A stretch of DNA of 64,000 bases from Henricia sp. BOLD:AAB3569 (taxonomy: Eukaryota; Echinodermata; Asteroidea; Spinulosida; Echinasteridae): contig JBBELK010000487.1 in assembly GCA_037783545.1 (NCBI GenBank), positions 62,001-126,000 on the forward strand. The letters are read 5' to 3'. A program made the position numbers and the translations under genes. Position 1 is the stretch's first letter. Every line of letters starts with the position of its first letter. The notes under the pieces were generated by a model. That model ran no database searches and was not told where the DNA came from. It saw nothing but the letters and a program-made list of their open reading frames with translations. Below are positions 2,873 through 63,857 of the stretch, one piece after another.

Positions 2873-2945
2873 GACCACGTGGCCTAATGGATAAGGCGTC
2901 CGACTTCGGATCGGAAGATTGAGGGTTGGAATCCCTTCGTGGTTG
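2873..2945 (+). tRNA. tRNA-Arg(TCG), C56G variant, unit 6
   Basis: C56G at 2928: T loop TTGGAAT. This breaks the G19-C56 elbow pair and the core of the B box, so the gene may be silent or its product unstable. First of the 22 variant copies. Confidence 0.7.
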
Positions 2946-3172
2946 TGCTATTTTGGCACGCTGACTCTGTCTTCTGTCTTCTAAAGTCGATCCGAGATGA
3001 CCGCCGTCTCCAGAAGGGCTTACTTCATGTATCCATGTTATGAACAATGTTATAGCAGGCCTTTGTGTTTGTGCAGTCAAGTTTGTCTCACAGGACAGTC
3101 TTCTTCAGCTAGCTCATGACAGACGATTGCAACTTTCAGCGCTGAGAGGTTGTCCAAAAGTGTGGCTTATGT

Positions 3173-3245
3173 GCCTCGTTGGCGCAGTCGGCAGCGCGTC
3201 AGTCTCATAATCTGAAGGTCGTGAGTTCGAGCCTCACACGGGGCA
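3173..3245 (+). tRNA. tRNA-Met(CAT), unit 7
   Basis: As unit 1. Confidence 0.96.
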
Positions 3246-3388
3246 GTCTCTGTCGTTTTGTAATGCTTCCCTTTTATATTATTGTTGTCTGCGTGAGGCT
3301 CAGGGTTTGGTAATGTCCTCATTTTAAACTGGAATGGCTCGTTTGGTTCCAACCATGCTGCTTGCGACCTGAAAGACAGCTTCACGTG

Positions 3389-3461
3389 GACCACGTGGCC
3401 TAATGGATAAGGCGTCCGACTTCGGATCGGAAGATTGAGGGTTCGAATCCCTTCGTGGTTG
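3389..3461 (+). tRNA. tRNA-Arg(TCG), unit 7
   Basis: As unit 1. Confidence 0.96.
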
Positions 3462-3688
3462 TGCTATTTTGGCACGCTGACTCTGTCTTCTGTCTTCTAA
3501 AGTCGATCCGAGATGACCGCCGTCTCCAGAAGGGCTTACTTCATGTATCCATGTTATGAACAATGTTATAGCAGGCCTTTGTGTTTGTGCAGTCAAGTTT
3601 GTCTCACAGGACAGTCTTCTTCAGCTAGCTCATGACAGACGATTGCAACTTTCAGCGCTGAGAGGTTGTCCAAAAGTGTGGCTTATGT

Positions 3689-3761
3689 GCCTCGTTGGCG
3701 CAGTCGGCAGCGCGTCAGTCTCATAATCTGAAGGTCGTGAGTTCGAGCCTCACACGGGGCA
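3689..3761 (+). tRNA. tRNA-Met(CAT), unit 8
   Basis: As unit 1. Confidence 0.96.
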
Positions 3762-3904
3762 GTCTCTGTCGTTTTGTAATGCTTCCCTTTTATATTATTG
3801 TTGTCTGCGTGAGGCTCAGGGTTTGGTAATGTCCTCATTTTAAACTGGAATGGCTCGTTTGGTTCCAACCATGCTGCTTGCGACCTGAAAGACAGCTTCA
3901 CGTG

Positions 3905-3977
3905 GACCACGTGGCCTAATGGATAAGGCGTCCGACTTCGGATCGGAAGATTGAGGGTTCGAATCCCTTCGTGGTTG
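3905..3977 (+). tRNA. tRNA-Arg(TCG), unit 8
   Basis: As unit 1. Confidence 0.96.
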
Positions 3978-4204
3978 TGCTATTTTGGCACGCTGACTCT
4001 GTCTTCTGTCTTCTAAAGTCGATCCGAGATGACCGCCGTCTCCAGAAGGGCTTACTTCATGTATCCATGTTATGAACAATGTTATAGCAGGCCTTTGTGT
4101 TTGTGCAGTCAAGTTTGTCTCACAGGACAGTCTTCTTCAGCTAGCTCATGACAGACGATTGCAACTTTCAGCGCTGAGAGGTTGTCCAAAAGTGTGGCTT
4201 ATGT

Positions 4205-4277
4205 GCCTCGTTGGCGCAGTCGGCAGCGCGTCAGTCTCATAATCTGAAGGTCGTGAGTTCGAGCCTCACACGGGGCT
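4205..4277 (+). tRNA. tRNA-Met(CAT), discriminator variant, unit 9
   Basis: A73T: the discriminator base at 4277 is T. A73 contributes to methionine identity, so charging may be weaker. The cloverleaf itself is intact. Confidence 0.85.
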
Positions 4278-4420
4278 GTCTCTGTCGTTTTGTAATGCTT
4301 CCCTTTTATATTATTGTTGTCTGCGTGAGGCTCAGGGTTTGGTAATGTCCTCATTTTAAACTGGAATGGCTCGTTTGGTTCCAACCATGCTGCTTGCGAC
4401 CTGAAAGACAGCTTCACGTG

Positions 4421-4493
4421 GACCACGTGGCCTAATGGATAAGGCGTCCGACTTCGGATCGGAAGATTGAGGGTTGGAATCCCTTCGTGGTTG
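4421..4493 (+). tRNA. tRNA-Arg(TCG), C56G variant, unit 9
   Basis: C56G at 4476. Both genes of this unit are altered. Confidence 0.7.
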
Positions 4494-4720
4494 TGCTATT
4501 TTGGCACGCTGACTCTGTCTTCTGTCTTCTAAAGTCGATCCGAGATGACCGCCGTCTCCAGAAGGGCTTACTTCATGTATCCATGTTATGAACAATGTTA
4601 TAGCAGGCCTTTGTGTTTGTGCAGTCAAGTTTGTCTCACAGGACAGTCTTCTTCAGCTAGCTCATGACAGACGATTGCAACTTTCAGCGCTGAGAGGTTG
4701 TCCAAAAGTGTGGCTTATGT

Positions 4721-4793
4721 GCCTCGTTGGCGCAGTCGGCAGCGCGTCAGTCTCATAATCTGAAGGTCGTGAGTTCGAGCCTCACACGGGGCA
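4721..4793 (+). tRNA. tRNA-Met(CAT), unit 10
   Basis: As unit 1. Confidence 0.96.
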
Positions 4794-4936
4794 GTCTCTG
4801 TCGTTTTGTAATGCTTCCCTTTTATATTATTGTTGTCTGCGTGAGGCTCAGGGTTTGGTAATGTCCTCATTTTAAACTGGAATGGCTCGTTTGGTTCCAA
4901 CCATGCTGCTTGCGACCTGAAAGACAGCTTCACGTG

Positions 4937-5009
4937 GACCACGTGGCCTAATGGATAAGGCGTCCGACTTCGGATCGGAAGATTGAGGGTTGGAATCCCT
5001 TCGTGGTTG
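4937..5009 (+). tRNA. tRNA-Arg(TCG), C56G variant, unit 10
   Basis: C56G at 4992, directly next to another variant unit (9). Confidence 0.7.
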
Positions 5010-5236
5010 TGCTATTTTGGCACGCTGACTCTGTCTTCTGTCTTCTAAAGTCGATCCGAGATGACCGCCGTCTCCAGAAGGGCTTACTTCATGTATCCAT
5101 GTTATGAACAATGTTATAGCAGGCCTTTGTGTTTGTGCAGTCAAGTTTGTCTCACAGGACAGTCTTCTTCAGCTAGCTCATGACAGACGATTGCAACTTT
5201 CAGCGCTGAGAGGTTGTCCAAAAGTGTGGCTTATGT

Positions 5237-5309
5237 GCCTCGTTGGCGCAGTCGGCAGCGCGTCAGTCTCATAATCTGAAGGTCGTGAGTTCGAGCCTCA
5301 CACGGGGCA
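5237..5309 (+). tRNA. tRNA-Met(CAT), unit 11
   Basis: As unit 1. Confidence 0.96.
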
Positions 5310-5452
5310 GTCTCTGTCGTTTTGTAATGCTTCCCTTTTATATTATTGTTGTCTGCGTGAGGCTCAGGGTTTGGTAATGTCCTCATTTTAAACTGGAATG
5401 GCTCGTTTGGTTCCAACCATGCTGCTTGCGACCTGAAAGACAGCTTCACGTG

Positions 5453-5525
5453 GACCACGTGGCCTAATGGATAAGGCGTCCGACTTCGGATCGGAAGATT
5501 GAGGGTTCGAATCCCTTCGTGGTTG
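5453..5525 (+). tRNA. tRNA-Arg(TCG), unit 11
   Basis: As unit 1. Confidence 0.96.
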
Positions 5526-5752
5526 TGCTATTTTGGCACGCTGACTCTGTCTTCTGTCTTCTAAAGTCGATCCGAGATGACCGCCGTCTCCAGAAGGGCT
5601 TACTTCATGTATCCATGTTATGAACAATGTTATAGCAGGCCTTTGTGTTTGTGCAGTCAAGTTTGTCTCACAGGACAGTCTTCTTCAGCTAGCTCATGAC
5701 AGACGATTGCAACTTTCAGCGCTGAGAGGTTGTCCAAAAGTGTGGCTTATGT

Positions 5753-5825
5753 GCCTCGTTGGCGCAGTCGGCAGCGCGTCAGTCTCATAATCTGAAGGTC
5801 GTGAGTTCGAGCCTCACACGGGGCA
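5753..5825 (+). tRNA. tRNA-Met(CAT), unit 12
   Basis: As unit 1. Confidence 0.96.
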
Positions 5826-5968
5826 GTCTCTGTCGTTTTGTAATGCTTCCCTTTTATATTATTGTTGTCTGCGTGAGGCTCAGGGTTTGGTAATGTCCTC
5901 ATTTTAAACTGGAATGGCTCGTTTGGTTCCAACCATGCTGCTTGCGACCTGAAAGACAGCTTCACGTG

Positions 5969-6041
5969 GACCACGTGGCCTAATGGATAAGGCGTCCGAC
6001 TTCGGATCGGAAGATTGAGGGTTCGAATCCCTTCGTGGTTG
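5969..6041 (+). tRNA. tRNA-Arg(TCG), unit 12
   Basis: As unit 1. Confidence 0.96.
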
Positions 6042-6268
6042 TGCTATTTTGGCACGCTGACTCTGTCTTCTGTCTTCTAAAGTCGATCCGAGATGACCGC
6101 CGTCTCCAGAAGGGCTTACTTCATGTATCCATGTTATGAACAATGTTATAGCAGGCCTTTGTGTTTGTGCAGTCAAGTTTGTCTCACAGGACAGTCTTCT
6201 TCAGCTAGCTCATGACAGACGATTGCAACTTTCAGCGCTGAGAGGTTGTCCAAAAGTGTGGCTTATGT

Positions 6269-6341
6269 GCCTCGTTGGCGCAGTCGGCAGCGCGTCAGTC
6301 TCATAATCTGAAGGTCGTGAGTTCGAGCCTCACACGGGGCA
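6269..6341 (+). tRNA. tRNA-Met(CAT), unit 13
   Basis: As unit 1. Confidence 0.96.
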
Positions 6342-6484
6342 GTCTCTGTCGTTTTGTAATGCTTCCCTTTTATATTATTGTTGTCTGCGTGAGGCTCAGG
6401 GTTTGGTAATGTCCTCATTTTAAACTGGAATGGCTCGTTTGGTTCCAACCATGCTGCTTGCGACCTGAAAGACAGCTTCACGTG

Positions 6485-6557
6485 GACCACGTGGCCTAAT
6501 GGATAAGGCGTCCGACTTCGGATCGGAAGATTGAGGGTTCGAATCCCTTCGTGGTTG
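6485..6557 (+). tRNA. tRNA-Arg(TCG), unit 13
   Basis: As unit 1. Confidence 0.96.
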
Positions 6558-6784
6558 TGCTATTTTGGCACGCTGACTCTGTCTTCTGTCTTCTAAAGTC
6601 GATCCGAGATGACCGCCGTCTCCAGAAGGGCTTACTTCATGTATCCATGTTATGAACAATGTTATAGCAGGCCTTTGTGTTTGTGCAGTCAAGTTTGTCT
6701 CACAGGACAGTCTTCTTCAGCTAGCTCATGACAGACGATTGCAACTTTCAGCGCTGAGAGGTTGTCCAAAAGTGTGGCTTATGT

Positions 6785-6857
6785 GCCTCGTTGGCGCAGT
6801 CGGCAGCGCGTCAGTCTCATAATCTGAAGGTCGTGAGTTCGAGCCTCACACGGGGCA
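6785..6857 (+). tRNA. tRNA-Met(CAT), unit 14
   Basis: As unit 1. Confidence 0.96.
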
Positions 6858-7000
6858 GTCTCTGTCGTTTTGTAATGCTTCCCTTTTATATTATTGTTGT
6901 CTGCGTGAGGCTCAGGGTTTGGTAATGTCCTCATTTTAAACTGGAATGGCTCGTTTGGTTCCAACCATGCTGCTTGCGACCTGAAAGACAGCTTCACGTG

Positions 7001-7073
7001 GACCACGTGGCCTAATGGATAAGGCGTCCGACTTCGGATCGGAAGATTGAGGGTTGGAATCCCTTCGTGGTTG
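7001..7073 (+). tRNA. tRNA-Arg(TCG), C56G variant, unit 14
   Basis: C56G at 7056. Confidence 0.7.
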
Positions 7074-7300
7074 TGCTATTTTGGCACGCTGACTCTGTCT
7101 TCTGTCTTCTAAAGTCGATCCGAGATGACCGCCGTCTCCAGAAGGGCTTACTTCATGTATCCATGTTATGAACAATGTTATAGCAGGCCTTTGTGTTTGT
7201 GCAGTCAAGTTTGTCTCACAGGACAGTCTTCTTCAGCTAGCTCATGACAGACGATTGCAACTTTCAGCGCTGAGAGGTTGTCCAAAAGTGTGGCTTATGT

Positions 7301-7373
7301 GCCTCGTTGGCGCAGTCGGCAGCGCGTCAGTCTCATAATCTGAAGGTCGTGAGTTCGAGCCTCACACGGGGCA
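7301..7373 (+). tRNA. tRNA-Met(CAT), unit 15
   Basis: As unit 1. Confidence 0.96.
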
Positions 7374-7516
7374 GTCTCTGTCGTTTTGTAATGCTTCCCT
7401 TTTATATTATTGTTGTCTGCGTGAGGCTCAGGGTTTGGTAATGTCCTCATTTTAAACTGGAATGGCTCGTTTGGTTCCAACCATGCTGCTTGCGACCTGA
7501 AAGACAGCTTCACGTG

Positions 7517-7589
7517 GACCACGTGGCCTAATGGATAAGGCGTCCGACTTCGGATCGGAAGATTGAGGGTTCGAATCCCTTCGTGGTTG
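7517..7589 (+). tRNA. tRNA-Arg(TCG), unit 15
   Basis: As unit 1. Confidence 0.96.
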
Positions 7590-7816
7590 TGCTATTTTGG
7601 CACGCTGACTCTGTCTTCTGTCTTCTAAAGTCGATCCGAGATGACCGCCGTCTCCAGAAGGGCTTACTTCATGTATCCATGTTATGAACAATGTTATAGC
7701 AGGCCTTTGTGTTTGTGCAGTCAAGTTTGTCTCACAGGACAGTCTTCTTCAGCTAGCTCATGACAGACGATTGCAACTTTCAGCGCTGAGAGGTTGTCCA
7801 AAAGTGTGGCTTATGT

Positions 7817-7889
7817 GCCTCGTTGGCGCAGTCGGCAGCGCGTCAGTCTCATAATCTGAAGGTCGTGAGTTCGAGCCTCACACGGGGCA
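7817..7889 (+). tRNA. tRNA-Met(CAT), unit 16
   Basis: As unit 1. Confidence 0.96.
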
Positions 7890-8032
7890 GTCTCTGTCGT
7901 TTTGTAATGCTTCCCTTTTATATTATTGTTGTCTGCGTGAGGCTCAGGGTTTGGTAATGTCCTCATTTTAAACTGGAATGGCTCGTTTGGTTCCAACCAT
8001 GCTGCTTGCGACCTGAAAGACAGCTTCACGTG

Positions 8033-8105
8033 GACCACGTGGCCTAATGGATAAGGCGTCCGACTTCGGATCGGAAGATTGAGGGTTCGAATCCCTTCGT
8101 GGTTG
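8033..8105 (+). tRNA. tRNA-Arg(TCG), unit 16
   Basis: As unit 1. Confidence 0.96.
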
Positions 8106-8332
8106 TGCTATTTTGGCACGCTGACTCTGTCTTCTGTCTTCTAAAGTCGATCCGAGATGACCGCCGTCTCCAGAAGGGCTTACTTCATGTATCCATGTTA
8201 TGAACAATGTTATAGCAGGCCTTTGTGTTTGTGCAGTCAAGTTTGTCTCACAGGACAGTCTTCTTCAGCTAGCTCATGACAGACGATTGCAACTTTCAGC
8301 GCTGAGAGGTTGTCCAAAAGTGTGGCTTATGT

Positions 8333-8405
8333 GCCTCGTTGGCGCAGTCGGCAGCGCGTCAGTCTCATAATCTGAAGGTCGTGAGTTCGAGCCTCACACG
8401 GGGCA
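8333..8405 (+). tRNA. tRNA-Met(CAT), unit 17
   Basis: As unit 1. Confidence 0.96.
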
Positions 8406-8548
8406 GTCTCTGTCGTTTTGTAATGCTTCCCTTTTATATTATTGTTGTCTGCGTGAGGCTCAGGGTTTGGTAATGTCCTCATTTTAAACTGGAATGGCTC
8501 GTTTGGTTCCAACCATGCTGCTTGCGACCTGAAAGACAGCTTCACGTG

Positions 8549-8621
8549 GACCACGTGGCCTAATGGATAAGGCGTCCGACTTCGGATCGGAAGATTGAGG
8601 GTTCGAATCCCTTCGTGGTTG
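8549..8621 (+). tRNA. tRNA-Arg(TCG), unit 17
   Basis: As unit 1. Confidence 0.96.
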
Positions 8622-8848
8622 TGCTATTTTGGCACGCTGACTCTGTCTTCTGTCTTCTAAAGTCGATCCGAGATGACCGCCGTCTCCAGAAGGGCTTACT
8701 TCATGTATCCATGTTATGAACAATGTTATAGCAGGCCTTTGTGTTTGTGCAGTCAAGTTTGTCTCACAGGACAGTCTTCTTCAGCTAGCTCATGACAGAC
8801 GATTGCAACTTTCAGCGCTGAGAGGTTGTCCAAAAGTGTGGCTTATGT

Positions 8849-8921
8849 GCCTCGTTGGCGCAGTCGGCAGCGCGTCAGTCTCATAATCTGAAGGTCGTGA
8901 GTTCGAGCCTCACACGGGGCA
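8849..8921 (+). tRNA. tRNA-Met(CAT), unit 18
   Basis: As unit 1. Confidence 0.96.
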
Positions 8922-9064
8922 GTCTCTGTCGTTTTGTAATGCTTCCCTTTTATATTATTGTTGTCTGCGTGAGGCTCAGGGTTTGGTAATGTCCTCATTT
9001 TAAACTGGAATGGCTCGTTTGGTTCCAACCATGCTGCTTGCGACCTGAAAGACAGCTTCACGTG

Positions 9065-9137
9065 GACCACGTGGCCTAATGGATAAGGCGTCCGACTTCG
9101 GATCGGAAGATTGAGGGTTCGAATCCCTTCGTGGTTG
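9065..9137 (+). tRNA. tRNA-Arg(TCG), unit 18
   Basis: As unit 1. Confidence 0.96.
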
Positions 9138-9364
9138 TGCTATTTTGGCACGCTGACTCTGTCTTCTGTCTTCTAAAGTCGATCCGAGATGACCGCCGTC
9201 TCCAGAAGGGCTTACTTCATGTATCCATGTTATGAACAATGTTATAGCAGGCCTTTGTGTTTGTGCAGTCAAGTTTGTCTCACAGGACAGTCTTCTTCAG
9301 CTAGCTCATGACAGACGATTGCAACTTTCAGCGCTGAGAGGTTGTCCAAAAGTGTGGCTTATGT

Positions 9365-9385
9365 GCCTCGTTGGCGCAGTCGGCA
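9365..9385 (+). pseudogene. tRNA-Met 5' fragment, unit 19, split by transposon
   Basis: The first 21 nt of tRNA-Met (acceptor 5' strand, D stem 5' strand and D loop). The gene is cut after position 21 by the 4.1-kb element and resumes at 13484. The A box stays with this half and the B box is 4.1 kb away, so normal Pol III transcription of a tRNA is not expected. Confidence 0.95.
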
Positions 9386-9398
9386 CCCAGCAAACACA
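9386..9398. repeat. left terminal inverted repeat
   Basis: CCCAGCAAACACA, inverted copy of the right end at 13469-13481. Confidence 0.85.
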
Positions 9399-9459
9399 TA
9401 ACATTTTAAAAACATTGTTGAAAGGTTGTAAGCAAAACATTGTGAAACTAACATAAAAT

Positions 9460-11430
9460 AACATTATTAAAACGTTAAAATGTCGTCTAATTGAAAACAT
9501 TTTCTCTATAACATTTTTATAATGTTGTGAAAATGTTAAAATTGTGCAGTCTAAAGACGTTATATTGATAACATTTTAAAAACATTCTTAAAAAGTAATA
9601 TACAAAACATTTTTTAAATAGCGTAAAAGAAACGTTATCAAAATGTTTTACTTCGTGGTCACTGAAAACGTTTTGCGTATAGCATTAAAATAACGTTCTT
9701 AAAACGTTAAACTGAAGTCTAATTGCAAACATTTTCTCTATAACATTTGTATAATGTTGTGAAAATGTTAAAACTGTCCAGGCTAAAGACGTTATTTTGA
9801 TAACATTTTAAAAACATTCTTAAAAGTAATATACAAAACATTTTTTAAATAGCGTAAAAGAAACGTTATCAAAATGTTTTACTTCGTGGTCACTGAAAAC
9901 GTTTTGCGTATAGCATTAAAAAAACGTTCTTAAAACGTTAAACTGAAGTCTAATTGAAAACATTCTCTCTATAACATTTTTATAATGTTGTGAAAATGTT
10001 AAAACTGTGCATGTTAAAGACATTATATTGATAACCTTTGTAAAACATTCTTAAAAAGTAATATATCAAACATTTTTTAAATAGCGTAAAAGAAACGTTA
10101 TAAAAATGTTTTACTTCGTGGTCACTGAAAACGTTTTGCGTATAGCATGAAAATAACGTTATTAAAACGTTAAACTGAAATATAATTGAAAACATTTTCT
10201 CTATAACATTTTTATAATGTTGTGAAAATGTTAAAACTGTGCATGTTAAAGACGTTATATTGATAACCTTTGTAAAACATTCTTAAAAAGTAATATACCA
10301 AACATTTTTTAAATAGCGTAAAAGAAACGTTATCAAAATGTTTTACTTCGTGGTCACTTAAAACGTTTTGCGTATAGCGTTAAAATAACGTTCTTAAAAC
10401 GTTAAACTGAAGTCTAATTGAAAACATTTTCTCTATAACATTTGTATAATGTTGTGAAAATGTTAAAACTGTGCAGGCTAAAGACGTTATTTTGATAACA
10501 TTTTAAAAACATTCTTAAAAGTAATATACTAAACATTTTTTAAATAGCGTAAAAGAAACGTTATCAAAATGTTTTACTTCGTGGTCACTGAAAACGTTTT
10601 GCGTATAGCATTCAAATAACGTTCTTAAAACTCTAAACTGAAGTCTAATTGAAAAAAATTTCTCTGTAACATTTTTATAATGTTGTGAAAATGTTAAAAC
10701 TGTGCATGTTAAAGACGTTATATTGAAAACGTTTTGCGTATAGCAGTAAAACAACGTTCTTATAAAACGTTAAAATGAAGTCTAATTATAAACATTTTCC
10801 TAAAAAGTAATATACCAAACATTTTTTAAATATCGTAAAAGAAACGTCAAACTATTTTACTTCGTGGTCACTGAAAACGTTTTGCGTATAGCAGTAAAAC
10901 AACGTTCTTAAAACGTTAAAATGAAGTCTAATTATAAACATTTTCTTAAAAAGTAATATACCCAAAAATTTTTAAATATCGTAAAAGAAACGTTCTCAAA
11001 ATGTTTTACTTCGTGGTCACTGAAAACGTTTTGCGTATAGCAGTAAAACAACGTTCTTAAAACGTTAAAATGAAGTCTAATTATAAACATTTTATTAAAA
11101 AGTAATATACCAAACAATTTTTAAATAGCGTAAAAGAAACGTTATCAAAATGTTTTACTTCGTGGTCACTGAAAAGTTTTGCGTATATAGCATGAAAATA
11201 ACGTTATTAAAACGTTAAACTGAAATCTAATTGAAAACATTTTCTCTATAACATTTTTATAATGTTGTGAAAATGTTAAAACTGTGCAGTCTGAAGACGT
11301 TATATTGATAACATTTTAAAAACATTCTTAAAAAGTAATATACAAAACATTTTTTAAATAGCGTAAAAGAAACGTTATCAAAATGTTTTACTTCGTGGTC
11401 ACTGAAAACGTTTTGCGTATAGCGTTAAAA
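9460..11430. repeat. internal tandem repeats of the TIR element, 231-233 bp and 149 bp monomers
   Basis: The marker CTTCGTGGTC recurs at 9651, 9882, 10114, 10346, 10577, 10860, 11009, 11158 and 11391. Most steps are 231-233 bp. Two steps are 149 bp, as if a shorter monomer with about 83 bp deleted had itself been duplicated; the 10577-10860 step is rearranged. AACATT, AATGTT and AACGTT motifs recur densely throughout. Confidence 0.85.
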
Positions 11431-11822
11431 AGTTAAATAGGTATTTTTCTAGAATAGAAAAAGTTATCAGCTTTCATTTGGTACCAAGAACGTAAAAATC
11501 CGTCAAGGATTAATGCCAGTCGATTAAAAACAAGAAATGATTAAAAGGCTGGCAGGTCATTTAATCGACAGGGTTATGACGTAAATGTACATGTGCGCGT
11601 ATATGTGTACATTGTACACATACTATGTACATGTGCGTACGCGCACATGTACAACATGTGAAGCACGTTTCAAGAAAAAGGCTTGTATCTCCAATTCACG
11701 ACGTCGGAAATTTAAGTTTTTGATATTTTTCGTTACAGAGACACGTAAGCTTTCTAAATTCGTTCGCTTGTGTAAATAATTTTTTTTAATCCTTTCACCG
11801 AAACACGGGCAATGCAACTTTA
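11431..11822. other. unique middle part of the TIR element
   Basis: Not part of either repeat family. It includes the palindrome cluster at 11587-11652. Short frames on both strands have no coding character and I see no domain. Confidence 0.6.
11587..11652. repeat. nested palindrome cluster of alternating purine-pyrimidine sequence
   Basis: Two hairpins: 10-bp arms 11602-11611/11613-11622 around one T, and 11-bp arms 11627-11637/11642-11652 (GTACATGTGCG) around TACG. GTACATGTGCG also occurs directly at 11587-11597. The run is nearly all alternating purine-pyrimidine, so it could form cruciform or Z-DNA. Confidence 0.75.
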
Positions 11823-11925
11823 GACTGAAGTGGGTATGAAGCGGGACTCCCAACCAGAGGTTGGGGGTTCGAGCCCCAATTCGACCAACGTGTCTGTGTC
11901 CCTGGGCGAGGCATTTAATCCCTTT
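11823..11925 (+). repeat. tRNA-derived SINE-like fragment inside the TIR element
   Basis: A G-rich T-arm-like segment with a B-box match GGTTCGAGCC at 11866-11875 is followed by a stretch ending CCTGGGCGAGGCATTTAATCC, which recalls the conserved body of some animal SINEs. No clear A box or complete cloverleaf, so it is a fragment or a chance resemblance. Confidence 0.45.
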
Positions 11926-11927
11926 AC

Positions 11928-12300
11928 GATGTTGTGTCCAAATGTTTTTACAACGTTTTTAAAACCACACATTTTAATGTTAAAAAAACATTTTTCGGAA
12001 ACATTGCTATAACATTGTTAAAACGTTCTTACGGCGTTTGATAAACATTTCAAAAACATTTCCGTGATGTTTTGACAATGCTAATAAAACGTTATAAAAA
12101 CATTTTCGCGATGTTGTGTCCAAATGTTATTGCAACGTTTTTAAAACCACACATTTTAATGTTAAAAAAACATTATTCGAAAACATTGCTATAACATTGT
12201 TAAAACGTTCTTACGACGTTTGATAAACATTTCAAAAACATTTCCGTGATGTTTTGACAATGTTAATAAAACGTTATAAAAACATTTTAATGACGTCTTA
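11928..12300. repeat. 182-bp tandem repeats of the TIR element, first group
   Basis: The marker GATGTTGTGTCCAAATGTT starts at 11928 and 12110. This is a different monomer from the 232-bp family, but with the same AACATT/AACGTT vocabulary. Confidence 0.85.
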
Positions 12301-13450: not shown

Positions 13451-13468
13451 ATGTTATTACAACGTTAT

Positions 13469-23360: not shown

Positions 23361-23364
23361 ACTT

Positions 23365-54796: not shown

Positions 54797-54869
54797 GCCT
54801 CGTTGGCGCAGTCGGCAGCGCGTCAGTCTCATAATCTGAAGGTCGTGAGTTCGAGCCTCACACGGGGCA
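54797..54869 (+). tRNA. tRNA-Met(CAT), unit 95
   Basis: As unit 1. Confidence 0.96.
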
Positions 54870-55012
54870 GTCTCTGTCGTTTTGTAATGCTTCCCTTTTA
54901 TATTATTGTTGTCTGCGTGAGGCTCAGGGTTTGGTAATGTCCTCATTTTAAACTGGAATGGCTCGTTTGGTTCCAACCATGCTGCTTGCGACCTGAAAGA
55001 CAGCTTCACGTG

Positions 55013-55085
55013 GACCACGTGGCCTAATGGATAAGGCGTCCGACTTCGGATCGGAAGATTGAGGGTTGGAATCCCTTCGTGGTTG
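55013..55085 (+). tRNA. tRNA-Arg(TCG), C56G variant, unit 95
   Basis: C56G at 55068. Confidence 0.7.
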
Positions 55086-55312
55086 TGCTATTTTGGCACG
55101 CTGACTCTGTCTTCTGTCTTCTAAAGTCGATCCGAGATGACCGCCGTCTCCAGAAGGGCTTACTTCATGTATCCATGTTATGAACAATGTTATAGCAGGC
55201 CTTTGTGTTTGTGCAGTCAAGTTTGTCTCACAGGACAGTCTTCTTCAGCTAGCTCATGACAGACGATTGCAACTTTCAGCGCTGAGAGGTTGTCCAAAAG
55301 TGTGGCTTATGT

Positions 55313-55385
55313 GCCTCGTTGGCGCAGTCGGCAGCGCGTCAGTCTCATAATCTGAAGGTCGTGAGTTCGAGCCTCACACGGGGCA
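55313..55385 (+). tRNA. tRNA-Met(CAT), unit 96
   Basis: As unit 1. Confidence 0.96.
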
Positions 55386-55528
55386 GTCTCTGTCGTTTTG
55401 TAATGCTTCCCTTTTATATTATTGTTGTCTGCGTGAGGCTCAGGGTTTGGTAATGTCCTCATTTTAAACTGGAATGGCTCGTTTGGTTCCAACCATGCTG
55501 CTTGCGACCTGAAAGACAGCTTCACGTG

Positions 55529-55601
55529 GACCACGTGGCCTAATGGATAAGGCGTCCGACTTCGGATCGGAAGATTGAGGGTTCGAATCCCTTCGTGGTT
55601 G
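55529..55601 (+). tRNA. tRNA-Arg(TCG), unit 96
   Basis: As unit 1. Confidence 0.96.
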
Positions 55602-55828
55602 TGCTATTTTGGCACGCTGACTCTGTCTTCTGTCTTCTAAAGTCGATCCGAGATGACCGCCGTCTCCAGAAGGGCTTACTTCATGTATCCATGTTATGAA
55701 CAATGTTATAGCAGGCCTTTGTGTTTGTGCAGTCAAGTTTGTCTCACAGGACAGTCTTCTTCAGCTAGCTCATGACAGACGATTGCAACTTTCAGCGCTG
55801 AGAGGTTGTCCAAAAGTGTGGCTTATGT

Positions 55829-55901
55829 GCCTCGTTGGCGCAGTCGGCAGCGCGTCAGTCTCATAATCTGAAGGTCGTGAGTTCGAGCCTCACACGGGGC
55901 A
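55829..55901 (+). tRNA. tRNA-Met(CAT), unit 97
   Basis: As unit 1. Confidence 0.96.
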
Positions 55902-56044
55902 GTCTCTGTCGTTTTGTAATGCTTCCCTTTTATATTATTGTTGTCTGCGTGAGGCTCAGGGTTTGGTAATGTCCTCATTTTAAACTGGAATGGCTCGTTT
56001 GGTTCCAACCATGCTGCTTGCGACCTGAAAGACAGCTTCACGTG

Positions 56045-56117
56045 GACCACGTGGCCTAATGGATAAGGCGTCCGACTTCGGATCGGAAGATTGAGGGTTG
56101 GAATCCCTTCGTGGTTG
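56045..56117 (+). tRNA. tRNA-Arg(TCG), C56G variant, unit 97
   Basis: C56G at 56100. Confidence 0.7.
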
Positions 56118-56344
56118 TGCTATTTTGGCACGCTGACTCTGTCTTCTGTCTTCTAAAGTCGATCCGAGATGACCGCCGTCTCCAGAAGGGCTTACTTCAT
56201 GTATCCATGTTATGAACAATGTTATAGCAGGCCTTTGTGTTTGTGCAGTCAAGTTTGTCTCACAGGACAGTCTTCTTCAGCTAGCTCATGACAGACGATT
56301 GCAACTTTCAGCGCTGAGAGGTTGTCCAAAAGTGTGGCTTATGT

Positions 56345-56417
56345 GCCTCGTTGGCGCAGTCGGCAGCGCGTCAGTCTCATAATCTGAAGGTCGTGAGTTC
56401 GAGCCTCACACGGGGCA
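56345..56417 (+). tRNA. tRNA-Met(CAT), unit 98
   Basis: As unit 1. Confidence 0.96.
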
Positions 56418-56560
56418 GTCTCTGTCGTTTTGTAATGCTTCCCTTTTATATTATTGTTGTCTGCGTGAGGCTCAGGGTTTGGTAATGTCCTCATTTTAAA
56501 CTGGAATGGCTCGTTTGGTTCCAACCATGCTGCTTGCGACCTGAAAGACAGCTTCACGTG

Positions 56561-56633
56561 GACCACGTGGCCTAATGGATAAGGCGTCCGACTTCGGATC
56601 GGAAGATTGAGGGTTCGAATCCCTTCGTGGTTG
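56561..56633 (+). tRNA. tRNA-Arg(TCG), unit 98
   Basis: As unit 1. Confidence 0.96.
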
Positions 56634-56860
56634 TGCTATTTTGGCACGCTGACTCTGTCTTCTGTCTTCTAAAGTCGATCCGAGATGACCGCCGTCTCCA
56701 GAAGGGCTTACTTCATGTATCCATGTTATGAACAATGTTATAGCAGGCCTTTGTGTTTGTGCAGTCAAGTTTGTCTCACAGGACAGTCTTCTTCAGCTAG
56801 CTCATGACAGACGATTGCAACTTTCAGCGCTGAGAGGTTGTCCAAAAGTGTGGCTTATGT

Positions 56861-56933
56861 GCCTCGTTGGCGCAGTCGGCAGCGCGTCAGTCTCATAATC
56901 TGAAGGTCGTGAGTTCGAGCCTCACACGGGGCA
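56861..56933 (+). tRNA. tRNA-Met(CAT), unit 99
   Basis: As unit 1. Confidence 0.96.
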
Positions 56934-57076
56934 GTCTCTGTCGTTTTGTAATGCTTCCCTTTTATATTATTGTTGTCTGCGTGAGGCTCAGGGTTTGGTA
57001 ATGTCCTCATTTTAAACTGGAATGGCTCGTTTGGTTCCAACCATGCTGCTTGCGACCTGAAAGACAGCTTCACGTG

Positions 57077-57149
57077 GACCACGTGGCCTAATGGATAAGG
57101 CGTCCGACTTCGGATCGGAAGATTGAGGGTTCGAATCCCTTCGTGGTTG
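57077..57149 (+). tRNA. tRNA-Arg(TCG), unit 99
   Basis: As unit 1. Confidence 0.96.
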
Positions 57150-57376
57150 TGCTATTTTGGCACGCTGACTCTGTCTTCTGTCTTCTAAAGTCGATCCGAG
57201 ATGACCGCCGTCTCCAGAAGGGCTTACTTCATGTATCCATGTTATGAACAATGTTATAGCAGGCCTTTGTGTTTGTGCAGTCAAGTTTGTCTCACAGGAC
57301 AGTCTTCTTCAGCTAGCTCATGACAGACGATTGCAACTTTCAGCGCTGAGAGGTTGTCCAAAAGTGTGGCTTATGT

Positions 57377-57449
57377 GCCTCGTTGGCGCAGTCGGCAGCG
57401 CGTCAGTCTCATAATCTGAAGGTCGTGAGTTCGAGCCTCACACGGGGCA
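57377..57449 (+). tRNA. tRNA-Met(CAT), unit 100
   Basis: As unit 1. Confidence 0.96.
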
Positions 57450-57592
57450 GTCTCTGTCGTTTTGTAATGCTTCCCTTTTATATTATTGTTGTCTGCGTGA
57501 GGCTCAGGGTTTGGTAATGTCCTCATTTTAAACTGGAATGGCTCGTTTGGTTCCAACCATGCTGCTTGCGACCTGAAAGACAGCTTCACGTG

Positions 57593-57665
57593 GACCACGT
57601 GGCCTAATGGATAAGGCGTCCGACTTCGGATCGGAAGATTGAGGGTTCGAATCCCTTCGTGGTTG
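57593..57665 (+). tRNA. tRNA-Arg(TCG), unit 100
   Basis: As unit 1. Confidence 0.96.
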
Positions 57666-57892
57666 TGCTATTTTGGCACGCTGACTCTGTCTTCTGTCTT
57701 CTAAAGTCGATCCGAGATGACCGCCGTCTCCAGAAGGGCTTACTTCATGTATCCATGTTATGAACAATGTTATAGCAGGCCTTTGTGTTTGTGCAGTCAA
57801 GTTTGTCTCACAGGACAGTCTTCTTCAGCTAGCTCATGACAGACGATTGCAACTTTCAGCGCTGAGAGGTTGTCCAAAAGTGTGGCTTATGT

Positions 57893-57965
57893 GCCTCGTT
57901 GGCGCAGTCGGCAGCGCGTCAGTCTCATAATCTGAAGGTCGTGAGTTCGAGCCTCACACGGGGCA
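57893..57965 (+). tRNA. tRNA-Met(CAT), unit 101
   Basis: As unit 1. Confidence 0.96.
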
Positions 57966-58108
57966 GTCTCTGTCGTTTTGTAATGCTTCCCTTTTATATT
58001 ATTGTTGTCTGCGTGAGGCTCAGGGTTTGGTAATGTCCTCATTTTAAACTGGAATGGCTCGTTTGGTTCCAACCATGCTGCTTGCGACCTGAAAGACAGC
58101 TTCACGTG

Positions 58109-58181
58109 GACCACGTGGCCTAATGGATAAGGCGTCCGACTTCGGATCGGAAGATTGAGGGTTCGAATCCCTTCGTGGTTG
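58109..58181 (+). tRNA. tRNA-Arg(TCG), unit 101
   Basis: As unit 1. Confidence 0.96.
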
Positions 58182-58408
58182 TGCTATTTTGGCACGCTGA
58201 CTCTGTCTTCTGTCTTCTAAAGTCGATCCGAGATGACCGCCGTCTCCAGAAGGGCTTACTTCATGTATCCATGTTATGAACAATGTTATAGCAGGCCTTT
58301 GTGTTTGTGCAGTCAAGTTTGTCTCACAGGACAGTCTTCTTCAGCTAGCTCATGACAGACGATTGCAACTTTCAGCGCTGAGAGGTTGTCCAAAAGTGTG
58401 GCTTATGT

Positions 58409-58481
58409 GCCTCGTTGGCGCAGTCGGCAGCGCGTCAGTCTCATAATCTGAAGGTCGTGAGTTCGAGCCTCACACGGGGCA
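58409..58481 (+). tRNA. tRNA-Met(CAT), unit 102
   Basis: As unit 1. Confidence 0.96.
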
Positions 58482-58624
58482 GTCTCTGTCGTTTTGTAAT
58501 GCTTCCCTTTTATATTATTGTTGTCTGCGTGAGGCTCAGGGTTTGGTAATGTCCTCATTTTAAACTGGAATGGCTCGTTTGGTTCCAACCATGCTGCTTG
58601 CGACCTGAAAGACAGCTTCACGTG

Positions 58625-58697
58625 GACCACGTGGCCTAATGGATAAGGCGTCCGACTTCGGATCGGAAGATTGAGGGTTGGAATCCCTTCGTGGTTG
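58625..58697 (+). tRNA. tRNA-Arg(TCG), C56G variant, unit 102
   Basis: C56G at 58680. Confidence 0.7.
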
Positions 58698-58924
58698 TGC
58701 TATTTTGGCACGCTGACTCTGTCTTCTGTCTTCTAAAGTCGATCCGAGATGACCGCCGTCTCCAGAAGGGCTTACTTCATGTATCCATGTTATGAACAAT
58801 GTTATAGCAGGCCTTTGTGTTTGTGCAGTCAAGTTTGTCTCACAGGACAGTCTTCTTCAGCTAGCTCATGACAGACGATTGCAACTTTCAGCGCTGAGAG
58901 GTTGTCCAAAAGTGTGGCTTATGT

Positions 58925-58997
58925 GCCTCGTTGGCGCAGTCGGCAGCGCGTCAGTCTCATAATCTGAAGGTCGTGAGTTCGAGCCTCACACGGGGCA
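58925..58997 (+). tRNA. tRNA-Met(CAT), unit 103
   Basis: As unit 1. Confidence 0.96.
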
Positions 58998-59140
58998 GTC
59001 TCTGTCGTTTTGTAATGCTTCCCTTTTATATTATTGTTGTCTGCGTGAGGCTCAGGGTTTGGTAATGTCCTCATTTTAAACTGGAATGGCTCGTTTGGTT
59101 CCAACCATGCTGCTTGCGACCTGAAAGACAGCTTCACGTG

Positions 59141-59213
59141 GACCACGTGGCCTAATGGATAAGGCGTCCGACTTCGGATCGGAAGATTGAGGGTTCGAAT
59201 CCCTTCGTGGTTG
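59141..59213 (+). tRNA. tRNA-Arg(TCG), unit 103
   Basis: As unit 1. Confidence 0.96.
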
Positions 59214-59440
59214 TGCTATTTTGGCACGCTGACTCTGTCTTCTGTCTTCTAAAGTCGATCCGAGATGACCGCCGTCTCCAGAAGGGCTTACTTCATGTAT
59301 CCATGTTATGAACAATGTTATAGCAGGCCTTTGTGTTTGTGCAGTCAAGTTTGTCTCACAGGACAGTCTTCTTCAGCTAGCTCATGACAGACGATTGCAA
59401 CTTTCAGCGCTGAGAGGTTGTCCAAAAGTGTGGCTTATGT

Positions 59441-59513
59441 GCCTCGTTGGCGCAGTCGGCAGCGCGTCAGTCTCATAATCTGAAGGTCGTGAGTTCGAGC
59501 CTCACACGGGGCA
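59441..59513 (+). tRNA. tRNA-Met(CAT), unit 104
   Basis: As unit 1. Confidence 0.96.
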
Positions 59514-59656
59514 GTCTCTGTCGTTTTGTAATGCTTCCCTTTTATATTATTGTTGTCTGCGTGAGGCTCAGGGTTTGGTAATGTCCTCATTTTAAACTGG
59601 AATGGCTCGTTTGGTTCCAACCATGCTGCTTGCGACCTGAAAGACAGCTTCACGTG

Positions 59657-59729
59657 GACCACGTGGCCTAATGGATAAGGCGTCCGACTTCGGATCGGAA
59701 GATTGAGGGTTCGAATCCCTTCGTGGTTG
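59657..59729 (+). tRNA. tRNA-Arg(TCG), unit 104
   Basis: As unit 1. Confidence 0.96.
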
Positions 59730-59956
59730 TGCTATTTTGGCACGCTGACTCTGTCTTCTGTCTTCTAAAGTCGATCCGAGATGACCGCCGTCTCCAGAAG
59801 GGCTTACTTCATGTATCCATGTTATGAACAATGTTATAGCAGGCCTTTGTGTTTGTGCAGTCAAGTTTGTCTCACAGGACAGTCTTCTTCAGCTAGCTCA
59901 TGACAGACGATTGCAACTTTCAGCGCTGAGAGGTTGTCCAAAAGTGTGGCTTATGT

Positions 59957-60029
59957 GCCTCGTTGGCGCAGTCGGCAGCGCGTCAGTCTCATAATCTGAA
60001 GGTCGTGAGTTCGAGCCTCACACGGGGCA
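59957..60029 (+). tRNA. tRNA-Met(CAT), unit 105
   Basis: As unit 1. Confidence 0.96.
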
Positions 60030-60172
60030 GTCTCTGTCGTTTTGTAATGCTTCCCTTTTATATTATTGTTGTCTGCGTGAGGCTCAGGGTTTGGTAATGT
60101 CCTCATTTTAAACTGGAATGGCTCGTTTGGTTCCAACCATGCTGCTTGCGACCTGAAAGACAGCTTCACGTG

Positions 60173-60245
60173 GACCACGTGGCCTAATGGATAAGGCGTC
60201 CGACTTCGGATCGGAAGATTGAGGGTTCGAATCCCTTCGTGGTTG
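60173..60245 (+). tRNA. tRNA-Arg(TCG), unit 105
   Basis: As unit 1. Confidence 0.96.
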
Positions 60246-60472
60246 TGCTATTTTGGCACGCTGACTCTGTCTTCTGTCTTCTAAAGTCGATCCGAGATGA
60301 CCGCCGTCTCCAGAAGGGCTTACTTCATGTATCCATGTTATGAACAATGTTATAGCAGGCCTTTGTGTTTGTGCAGTCAAGTTTGTCTCACAGGACAGTC
60401 TTCTTCAGCTAGCTCATGACAGACGATTGCAACTTTCAGCGCTGAGAGGTTGTCCAAAAGTGTGGCTTATGT

Positions 60473-60545
60473 GCCTCGTTGGCGCAGTCGGCAGCGCGTC
60501 AGTCTCATAATCTGAAGGTCGTGAGTTCGAGCCTCACACGGGGCA
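60473..60545 (+). tRNA. tRNA-Met(CAT), unit 106
   Basis: As unit 1. Confidence 0.96.
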
Positions 60546-60688
60546 GTCTCTGTCGTTTTGTAATGCTTCCCTTTTATATTATTGTTGTCTGCGTGAGGCT
60601 CAGGGTTTGGTAATGTCCTCATTTTAAACTGGAATGGCTCGTTTGGTTCCAACCATGCTGCTTGCGACCTGAAAGACAGCTTCACGTG

Positions 60689-60761
60689 GACCACGTGGCC
60701 TAATGGATAAGGCGTCCGACTTCGGATCGGAAGATTGAGGGTTGGAATCCCTTCGTGGTTG
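60689..60761 (+). tRNA. tRNA-Arg(TCG), C56G variant, unit 106
   Basis: C56G at 60744. Confidence 0.7.
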
Positions 60762-60988
60762 TGCTATTTTGGCACGCTGACTCTGTCTTCTGTCTTCTAA
60801 AGTCGATCCGAGATGACCGCCGTCTCCAGAAGGGCTTACTTCATGTATCCATGTTATGAACAATGTTATAGCAGGCCTTTGTGTTTGTGCAGTCAAGTTT
60901 GTCTCACAGGACAGTCTTCTTCAGCTAGCTCATGACAGACGATTGCAACTTTCAGCGCTGAGAGGTTGTCCAAAAGTGTGGCTTATGT

Positions 60989-61061
60989 GCCTCGTTGGCG
61001 CAGTCGGCAGCGCGTCAGTCTCATAATCTGAAGGTCGTGAGTTCGAGCCTCACACGGGGCA
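60989..61061 (+). tRNA. tRNA-Met(CAT), unit 107
   Basis: As unit 1. Confidence 0.96.
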
Positions 61062-61204
61062 GTCTCTGTCGTTTTGTAATGCTTCCCTTTTATATTATTG
61101 TTGTCTGCGTGAGGCTCAGGGTTTGGTAATGTCCTCATTTTAAACTGGAATGGCTCGTTTGGTTCCAACCATGCTGCTTGCGACCTGAAAGACAGCTTCA
61201 CGTG

Positions 61205-61277
61205 GACCACGTGGCCTAATGGATAAGGCGTCCGACTTCGGATCGGAAGATTGAGGGTTCGAATCCCTTCGTGGTTG
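61205..61277 (+). tRNA. tRNA-Arg(TCG), unit 107
   Basis: As unit 1. Confidence 0.96.
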
Positions 61278-61504
61278 TGCTATTTTGGCACGCTGACTCT
61301 GTCTTCTGTCTTCTAAAGTCGATCCGAGATGACCGCCGTCTCCAGAAGGGCTTACTTCATGTATCCATGTTATGAACAATGTTATAGCAGGCCTTTGTGT
61401 TTGTGCAGTCAAGTTTGTCTCACAGGACAGTCTTCTTCAGCTAGCTCATGACAGACGATTGCAACTTTCAGCGCTGAGAGGTTGTCCAAAAGTGTGGCTT
61501 ATGT

Positions 61505-61577
61505 GCCTCGTTGGCGCAGTCGGCAGCGCGTCAGTCTCATAATCTGAAGGTCGTGAGTTCGAGCCTCACACGGGGCA
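61505..61577 (+). tRNA. tRNA-Met(CAT), unit 108
   Basis: As unit 1. Confidence 0.96.
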
Positions 61578-61720
61578 GTCTCTGTCGTTTTGTAATGCTT
61601 CCCTTTTATATTATTGTTGTCTGCGTGAGGCTCAGGGTTTGGTAATGTCCTCATTTTAAACTGGAATGGCTCGTTTGGTTCCAACCATGCTGCTTGCGAC
61701 CTGAAAGACAGCTTCACGTG

Positions 61721-61793
61721 GACCACGTGGCCTAATGGATAAGGCGTCCGACTTCGGATCGGAAGATTGAGGGTTCGAATCCCTTCGTGGTTG
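61721..61793 (+). tRNA. tRNA-Arg(TCG), unit 108
   Basis: As unit 1. Confidence 0.96.
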
Positions 61794-62020
61794 TGCTATT
61801 TTGGCACGCTGACTCTGTCTTCTGTCTTCTAAAGTCGATCCGAGATGACCGCCGTCTCCAGAAGGGCTTACTTCATGTATCCATGTTATGAACAATGTTA
61901 TAGCAGGCCTTTGTGTTTGTGCAGTCAAGTTTGTCTCACAGGACAGTCTTCTTCAGCTAGCTCATGACAGACGATTGCAACTTTCAGCGCTGAGAGGTTG
62001 TCCAAAAGTGTGGCTTATGT

Positions 62021-62093
62021 GCCTCGTTGGCGCAGTCGGCAGCGCGTCAGTCTCATAATCTGAAGGTCGTGAGTTCGAGCCTCACACGGGGCA
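62021..62093 (+). tRNA. tRNA-Met(CAT), unit 109
   Basis: As unit 1. Confidence 0.96.
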
Positions 62094-62236
62094 GTCTCTG
62101 TCGTTTTGTAATGCTTCCCTTTTATATTATTGTTGTCTGCGTGAGGCTCAGGGTTTGGTAATGTCCTCATTTTAAACTGGAATGGCTCGTTTGGTTCCAA
62201 CCATGCTGCTTGCGACCTGAAAGACAGCTTCACGTG

Positions 62237-62309
62237 GACCACGTGGCCTAATGGATAAGGCGTCCGACTTCGGATCGGAAGATTGAGGGTTGGAATCCCT
62301 TCGTGGTTG
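62237..62309 (+). tRNA. tRNA-Arg(TCG), C56G variant, unit 109
   Basis: C56G at 62292. The spacer downstream has a private G to T at 62458. Confidence 0.7.
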
Positions 62310-62536
62310 TGCTATTTTGGCACGCTGACTCTGTCTTCTGTCTTCTAAAGTCGATCCGAGATGACCGCCGTCTCCAGAAGGGCTTACTTCATGTATCCAT
62401 GTTATGAACAATGTTATAGCAGGCCTTTGTGTTTGTGCAGTCAAGTTTGTCTCACAGTACAGTCTTCTTCAGCTAGCTCATGACAGACGATTGCAACTTT
62501 CAGCGCTGAGAGGTTGTCCAAAAGTGTGGCTTATGT

Positions 62537-62609
62537 GCCTCGTTGGCGCAGTCGGCAGCGCGTCAGTCTCATAATCTGAAGGTCGTGAGTTCGAGCCTCA
62601 CACGGGGCA
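62537..62609 (+). tRNA. tRNA-Met(CAT), unit 110
   Basis: As unit 1. Confidence 0.96.
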
Positions 62610-62752
62610 GTCTCTGTCGTTTTGTAATGCTTCCCTTTTATATTATTGTTGTCTGCGTGAGGCTCAGGGTTTGGTAATGTCCTCATTTTAAACTGGAATG
62701 GCTCGTTTGGTTCCAACCATGCTGCTTGCGACCTGAAAGACAGCTTCACGTG

Positions 62753-62825
62753 GACCACGTGGCCTAATGGATAAGGCGTCCGACTTCGGATCGGAAGATT
62801 GAGGGTTCGAATCCCTTCGTGGTTG
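62753..62825 (+). tRNA. tRNA-Arg(TCG), unit 110
   Basis: As unit 1. Confidence 0.96.
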
Positions 62826-63052
62826 TGCTATTTTGGCACGCTGACTCTGTCTTCTGTCTTCTAAAGTCGATCCGAGATGACCGCCGTCTCCAGAAGGGCT
62901 TACTTCATGTATCCATGTTATGAACAATGTTATAGCAGGCCTTTGTGTTTGTGCAGTCAAGTTTGTCTCACAGGACAGTCTTCTTCAGCTAGCTCATGAC
63001 AGACGATTGCAACTTTCAGCGCTGAGAGGTTGTCCAAAAGTGTGGCTTATGT

Positions 63053-63125
63053 GCCTCGTTGGCGCAGTCGGCAGCGCGTCAGTCTCATAATCTGAAGGTC
63101 GTGAGTTCGAGCCTCACACGGGGCA
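63053..63125 (+). tRNA. tRNA-Met(CAT), unit 111
   Basis: As unit 1. Confidence 0.96.
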
Positions 63126-63268
63126 GTCTCTGTCGTTTTGTAATGCTTCCCTTTTATATTATTGTTGTCTGCGTGAGGCTCAGGGTTTGGTAATGTCCTC
63201 ATTTTAAACTGGAATGGCTCGTTTGGTTCCAACCATGCTGCTTGCGACCTGAAAGACAGCTTCACGTG

Positions 63269-63341
63269 GACCACGTGGCCTAATGGATAAGGCGTCCGAC
63301 TTCGGATCGGAAGATTGAGGGTTCGAATCCCTTCGTGGTTG
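63269..63341 (+). tRNA. tRNA-Arg(TCG), unit 111
   Basis: As unit 1. Confidence 0.96.
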
Positions 63342-63568
63342 TGCTATTTTGGCACGCTGACTCTGTCTTCTGTCTTCTAAAGTCGATCCGAGATGACCGC
63401 CGTCTCCAGAAGGGCTTACTTCATGTATCCATGTTATGAACAATGTTATAGCAGGCCTTTGTGTTTGTGCAGTCAAGTTTGTCTCACAGGACAGTCTTCT
63501 TCAGCTAGCTCATGACAGACGATTGCAACTTTCAGCGCTGAGAGGTTGTCCAAAAGTGTGGCTTATGT

Positions 63569-63641
63569 GCCTCGTTGGCGCAGTCGGCAGCGCGTCAGTC
63601 TCATAATCTGAAGGTCGTGAGTTCGAGCCTCACACGGGGCA
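63569..63641 (+). tRNA. tRNA-Met(CAT), unit 112
   Basis: As unit 1. Confidence 0.96.
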
Positions 63642-63784
63642 GTCTCTGTCGTTTTGTAATGCTTCCCTTTTATATTATTGTTGTCTGCGTGAGGCTCAGG
63701 GTTTGGTAATGTCCTCATTTTAAACTGGAATGGCTCGTTTGGTTCCAACCATGCTGCTTGCGACCTGAAAGACAGCTTCACGTG

Positions 63785-63857
63785 GACCACGTGGCCTAAT
63801 GGATAAGGCGTCCGACTTCGGATCGGAAGATTGAGGGTTGGAATCCCTTCGTGGTTG
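63785..63857 (+). tRNA. tRNA-Arg(TCG), C56G variant, unit 112
   Basis: C56G at 63840. Last gene in the window. Confidence 0.7.

Follow-up and report, generated by a model that had tools for sequence, protein, structure and literature searches.

C56G tRNA-Arg genes, probably promoter-null and of single origin, in a tandem tRNA array of the sea star Henricia and their probable spread by unequal exchange of multiunit blocks

A C-to-G substitution at base 56 of a tRNA-Arg gene, in the B box, occurs in 22 of 112 units of a tandem tRNA gene array in the sea star Henricia sp. BOLD:AAB3569, and is probably one mutation that redundancy made tolerable and that ordinary unequal exchange then multiplied, probably with no special function needed. 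The DNA analyzed (the window) comprises 64,000 nucleotides, positions 62,001 to 126,000 of contig JBBELK010000487.1 (assembly GCA_037783545.1; G000:C487:62001-126000). Over its whole length (1..64000, plus strand) it consists of 516-bp units in tandem, with two large insertions breaking the series, and each unit contains one elongator tRNA-Met(CAT) gene and one tRNA-Arg(TCG) gene, both on the plus strand. The array extends beyond the window, which holds contig units 120-231 of at least 356, window unit n being contig unit n + 119. On this contig (hereafter C487) the array starts at the first bases and stops near 200 kb in a truncated tRNA-Arg gene. The array was surveyed over the 279,748 bases of C487, in readable letters only, and the assembly searched amounts to 741 Mb.

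All 112 tRNA-Arg genes of the window were located. The unit length is exactly 516 bp in 105 cases; unit 1 is split by the window edge, and the remaining units either have lost 16, 7, or 1 bp or carry inserts of 4,098, 2,024, or 95 bp. Since a 1-nt insertion or deletion is found in only one of the 112 units, and there outside homopolymers of four or more, the window sequence is of good quality. The 22 units reading TTGGAAT at positions 54-60 of the tRNA-Arg gene are identical, unit for unit, to those listed in an earlier note on this DNA. Linear position 56 is the standard C56, and the Rfam tRNA model aligns the base in the T loop; the G56 form scores 64.1 bits against 68.6 bits for the C56 form, both being still recognized as tRNA. 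At this base the window has 22 C>G changes and zero changes of any other kind, and the hexamer GTTCGA in the T arm of the tRNA-Met gene is unaltered in 112 of 112 copies. With one type of change at the base and a constant hexamer in the Met gene, the excess of C56G is beyond chance. Among the 105 full-length units of the window, 15 variants are present, of which C56G occurs in 21 units and 14 others once each; the 22nd G56 gene belongs to unit 6, which has the 7-bp deletion, and two more single substitutions sit in window units with insertions or deletions.

The 22 G56 genes, all on the plus strand, are those of units 6 (2873..2945, with the substituted base at 2928 and the 7-bp deletion in the spacer), 9 (4421..4493; the Met gene of this unit has A73T), 10 (4937..5009), 14 (7001..7073), 29 (18839..18911), 45 (29119..29191), 53 (33246..33318), 59 (36437..36509), 63 (38501..38573, also carrying G45C), 68 (41081..41153), 75 (44693..44765), 80 (47273..47345), 84 (49337..49409), 85 (49853..49925, also carrying G to T at linear position 18; Rfam 61.4 bits), 87 (50885..50957), 91 (52949..53021), 95 (55013..55085), 97 (56045..56117), 102 (58625..58697), 106 (60689..60761), 109 (62237..62309), and 112 (63785..63857). 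In unit 85, linear position 18 is the standard G19 in our numbering, the partner of C56, and a U19-G56 wobble could replace the lost G19-C56 pair; this is one case and could be chance.

The distribution of the allele along the contig is strongly dependent on position. Counting genes within eight substitutions of the reference, C487 has 356 tRNA-Arg genes, 293 with C56 and 63 with G56. G56 is present in 0/124 of contig units 1-124, 5/36 of units 125-160, then 7/40, 14/48, and 36/54 (units 249-302), and finally 1/54. Within units 125-302 the correlation of G56 density with position is 0.41, a value unreached in 5,000 permutations. The share of about a fifth of the array given in the earlier note is 63/356 (18%) for the contig; in the assembly, G56 makes up about 9% of exact copies.

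A single origin is indicated by the bases downstream of the gene. The commonest spacer variants are T37C (15 copies) and A38G (8 copies), at unit positions 37 and 38, adjacent bases just 3′ of the tRNA-Arg gene; GA at these two positions occurs in one further place on C487. In 63 of 63 G56 genes these sites, 54-55 bp downstream of base 56, hold the common bases TA, and C56 always precedes T37C (15/15) and A38G (8/8). The exclusion between A38G and G56 in units 249-302 has P = 0.003. In exact searches of the assembly, a 30-mer specific to G56 has 62 matches, all of them on C487, to which the matches of T37C (15) and A38G (7) are also limited. A 38-mer with C56 has 647 matches against the 62 of the G56 30-mer, the two patterns differing in length; several hundred units without the G56, T37C, or A38G markers must therefore lie on other contigs (roughly 350 of the 647 matches, once the 293 C56 genes of C487 are subtracted). 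The variant is thus local to one array segment (62/62 on C487) and to a single flanking haplotype (63/63). Outside the assembly, relatives were sought in two collections that are unsuited to animals: viral_contigs had none for a 22-mer with G56 or for a 29-mer of the spacer, and genome_contigs had none for a 47-mer covering both alleles.

The means of spread can be read from markers that recur at short distances. These are G219C in contig units 109/114 (offset 5); A367T in units 41/47 and an identical 505-bp unit at 46/52 (offset 6); A38G in units 264/271 and C325T in 267/274 (offset 7); a 4,937-bp unit at 346/354, identical in its readable letters (offset 8); and T312A in units 323/332 (offset 9). 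Offsets of this kind are the traces of unequal exchange that moved 5-9 units (2.6-4.6 kb) at a time. The 7-unit block duplication sits among G56 units and bears two other markers: the C/G string of contig units 257-268 recurs at 264-275, with A38G and C325T at the same 7-unit offset inside it. A neutral single-origin simulation with duplications and deletions of 5-9 units (150 arrays, sampled at 50-75 copies) gave medians of 33.5 for the number of separate G runs (37 in the actual array), 27 for the G copies in the densest stretch of 54 units (36 in the actual array), and 146.5 units for the span (216 in the actual array). With blocks of 1-3 units the median was 5 runs (few, solid ones), and 37 runs were reached in 0.00 of 150 arrays. 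Neutral spread by 5-9-unit blocks therefore gives G56 patterns of the observed kind, with a modest joint fit. Unequal exchange or gene conversion, proposed in the earlier note as the simplest explanation, is accordingly upheld, and sharpened by the block duplications and the neutral simulation.

Other patterns and modes of spread were rejected. Independent placement is contradicted by the spacing (P 0.0035), and the pattern fits neither single-unit tandem duplication nor, by simulation, exchange of 1-3 units. A reading from the window alone, in which C56G was the lone founder allele of a burst, was replaced because the contig has other shared variants and because the observed clustering arose in at most about 0.1% of one-step founder runs.

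Several observations weigh against spread of this kind. The joint fit is modest, since the real allele is dense as well as widely spread: a long run of C alone, a dense core, and a broad span come together in only 0.03 of simulated arrays, and in 0.05-0.06 with conversion added, at thresholds (100, 30, and 150) looser than the observed 124, 36, and 216 and with the gradient itself unscored. Neutral exchange accounts only in part for the gradient and for its abrupt end at unit 302/303, and it does not account for unit 340, the only G56 unit past unit 302. The order of the units is that given by the assembly, and the edge could also stem from a wrong join there. C/G strings as long as the one repeated at 7 units match also at offsets 36 and 53, so the 7-unit case rests on its markers. 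Even with local density allowed for, the G56 units are spaced more evenly than expected at random (P about 0.004-0.005 in the window and 0.005-0.008 in units 125-302, several statistics having been tried); a test for higher-order repeats found no single period, the only repeat being the local one of 7 units. If the 35 singletons of the contig are all true mutations, steady neutral turnover matched the counts of shared and single variants in none of 150 equilibrium runs with 112 units each, the observed singletons being too many and the shared variants far too few, and exchange since homogenization gave a variant of at least 50 copies with at most eight shared ones in 0 of 400 runs at each of nine rates. 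Also, 20 of the 35 singletons of the contig are transversions, which would fit errors. Greater regularity in the latter half of the window (P 0.0009) was set aside, the split having been chosen after the data were seen.

The other variants of the array put C56G in context. Among 341 full-length units of the contig, 42 variants were found, namely 35 singletons, four pairs, and three variants in 8, 12, and 61 units, so that the units are far more alike than independent copies, as in concerted evolution. The statement of the earlier note that no other substitution goes beyond a single unit is correct inside the window and fails for the contig, where six shared variants besides C56G occur in the full-length units (in 12, 8, 2, 2, 2, and 2 units). 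C56G is the commonest of seven shared substitutions, not the sole one. If the singletons are all true mutations, then C56G predates the last homogenization; otherwise, many singletons are assembly errors. The singleton excess can be explained by either a recently homogenized array or assembly errors, and neither undoes C56G itself. An apparent enrichment of singletons in the tRNA genes, as under transcription-associated mutation, was seen in the window (11 of 14 in tRNA bodies, P = 1.4e-4) and was dropped because the tRNA-Arg and spacer rates are equal outside the window (3 singletons in 17,155 and 15 in 86,022 readable bases, respectively). Over the whole contig the Arg rate is higher than that of the spacer (odds ratio 2.8, P = 0.018), which favors keeping the enrichment, and the Met gene outside the window has a higher rate on few bases (3 singletons in 4,163 readable bases).

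The substitution falls on a base of known importance. TFIIIC contacts base pair 56, and C56G weakens its binding 370-fold in yeast SUP4 (PMC11811891); C56G abolishes TRE5-A integration in Dictyostelium (PMC5391098); and C56 is conserved in all the tRNAs analyzed in PMC9023262. In 22 of the 112 window units, therefore, the B-box base contacted by TFIIIC in yeast is substituted (PMC11811891). By this analogy the C56G tRNA-Arg genes are probably promoter-null, with poor TFIIIC binding, and RNA made from them would be without the G19-C56 pair. The allele would go back to a single mutation in a 516-bp Met/Arg unit of the C56 form, in the array segment that is now C487. Exchange between misaligned sister or homologous arrays would then have added copies of some blocks and removed others, each of about 5-9 units (2.6-4.6 kb). 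The G56 copies would bind TFIIIC poorly and be little transcribed, and their loss would be tolerated since hundreds of C56 copies remain. Selection for the allele would be unnecessary: with redundant copies a null loss is cheap, and neutral spread needs no benefit.

Other explanations have to be weighed against neutral spread from one mutation. Spread driven mainly in one direction, for instance by biased gene conversion starting near unit 302, would produce a gradient with a sharp edge, and the density indeed climbs in the steps given above, with its correlation of 0.41, before falling to 1/54. We regard it as unlikely, since random block exchange also clusters G56 (the gradient being unscored there) and since A38G and G56 are never found on one haplotype, at a distance of only 54-55 bp, so that very short patches have not mixed them. 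C to G is, in addition, not the direction that GC-biased conversion is known to take. A systematic sequencing or consensus error at base 56 would fit a scatter seen in the window alone without linked markers, and many singletons may themselves be errors, given the transversions among them. It is contradicted by the change from 0/124 to 36/54 to 1/54 on one contig, by the complete linkage of G56 to the downstream markers, by the Met-gene hexamer (changed in 0/112), and by the good quality of the window sequence, with its one unit having a 1-nt insertion or deletion, and the probability left to it is very small. Recurrent mutation at a hypermutable base would accord with the elevated mutation rates reported for tRNA genes (PMC9023262, citing Thornlow 2018) and is highly improbable when base 56 has 63 C>G and zero C>A or C>T changes on the contig, when T37C and A38G haplotypes carry G56 in 0 of 23 cases, and when the left end of the array has 0/124.

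Selection could also have favored G56 because a duplicated unit brings a Met gene together with an Arg gene, so that a null allele would decouple their dosage, trimming surplus tRNA-Arg(UCG) with the Met supply kept. The commonest shared variant does hit one base of the B box, which offers few targets in a 516-bp unit; C56G outnumbers each of the other six shared substitutions of the contig; and within the window the Met gene has no shared change (outside it, the survey covers the readable part of the unit only, and shared changes could be missed). This explanation is nevertheless distinctly unlikely, as neutral spread simulates patterns of the observed kind, two spacer variants without obvious function stand at 15 and 8 copies, and exact C56 and G56 matches in the assembly number 647 to 62. 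Its further form, in which tRNA-Arg genes are silenced copy by copy, kept, and driven up as dosage compensators while the coamplified Met partner stays active, seems quite improbable. The sequence analysis found no evidence of a selected "silent copy" function, which the earlier note had offered as its more exciting alternative.

Neutral spread of a tolerated mutation has partial counterparts in known systems. The Arabidopsis SYY cluster (tRNA-Ser/Tyr/Tyr) is likewise a tandem tRNA array grown by duplication, with an identical core and a sizeable minority of tRNA-like pseudogenes, there 13 of 54 clustered tRNA-Tyr genes; several minor sequences are described there, whereas here one B-box substitution makes up most variant tRNA-Arg copies (PMC12308677). 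Entamoeba tRNA arrays also consist of long tandem units with several tRNA genes, and the spread of variant units is ascribed to concerted evolution, random and with no advantage needed; that study found no clear sign of nonfunctional copies, whereas here 18% of the contig's tRNA-Arg copies are probably promoter-null (PMC2652664). Yeast SUP4 (PMC11811891) and the Dictyostelium TRE5-A assay (PMC5391098) share the same base change, as laboratory mutations, whereas the present allele is natural, high in copy number, and known from sequence. Clusters in the sea anemone, zebrafish, and others have many tRNA genes, heterogeneous and largely on the same strand, and within-unit variants are not described in the parts of that survey covered (PMC2888827). 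Among the papers listed in literature searches, none describes this array or a C56G allele occurring naturally in many copies, which is no proof of absence. The array offers a clean natural record of a probably dead gene copy spreading in a tandem array, in which the exchange footprints give the block size. Because G56 and C56 genes occupy otherwise identical neighboring units, a paired test of TFIIIC dependence in one chromatin environment is possible.

Further features of the array were observed. At G000:C245:3008300-3013300, on one of the other contigs whose units are without the G56, T37C, or A38G markers, three full units are followed by a truncated end unit and a right flank that are also those of the C487 array, the two flanks being 99.96% identical over 2,451 bp. 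On its left side this cluster has an inverted copy of part of the right flank, and it may represent a short haplotype, result from an inverted duplication, or be an artifact of the assembly. A 4.4-kb spacer insertion is present in contig units 346 and 354 (about 184.9-198.4 kb), identical in the readable letters; its junction occurs at two places in the assembly, both on C487. The tRNA-Met body of window unit 32 (20686-20760) bears a Val anticodon, CAC; this form has a single copy and may be a missense tRNA gene.

Three units of the window carry insertions. In unit 19 (9386-13481), a 4.1-kb insertion lies within the D-arm of the tRNA-Met gene; its ends are CCCAGCAAACACA and TGTGTTTGCTGGG, with a likely 2-bp CA duplication, and it is tandem-repetitive inside. 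A tRNA-like stretch of the short interspersed nuclear element type was noticed near 11820-11930 by eye only, Rfam giving no match there. The 2.0-kb insertion of unit 37 (22600-24638) contains split direct repeats A1 (22600-22736), B1 (23217-23375), A2 (23361-23497), and B2 (24480-24638), an A1-B1A2-B2 layout as in PAT/Ngaro-type DIRS elements; a reverse-strand frame of 95 amino acids has only weak Pfam matches, below the cut-off. Unit 58 has a 95-bp insertion (35449-35543) with inverted ends, CACTATGA.../...TCATAGTG, resembling a miniature inverted-repeat transposable element.

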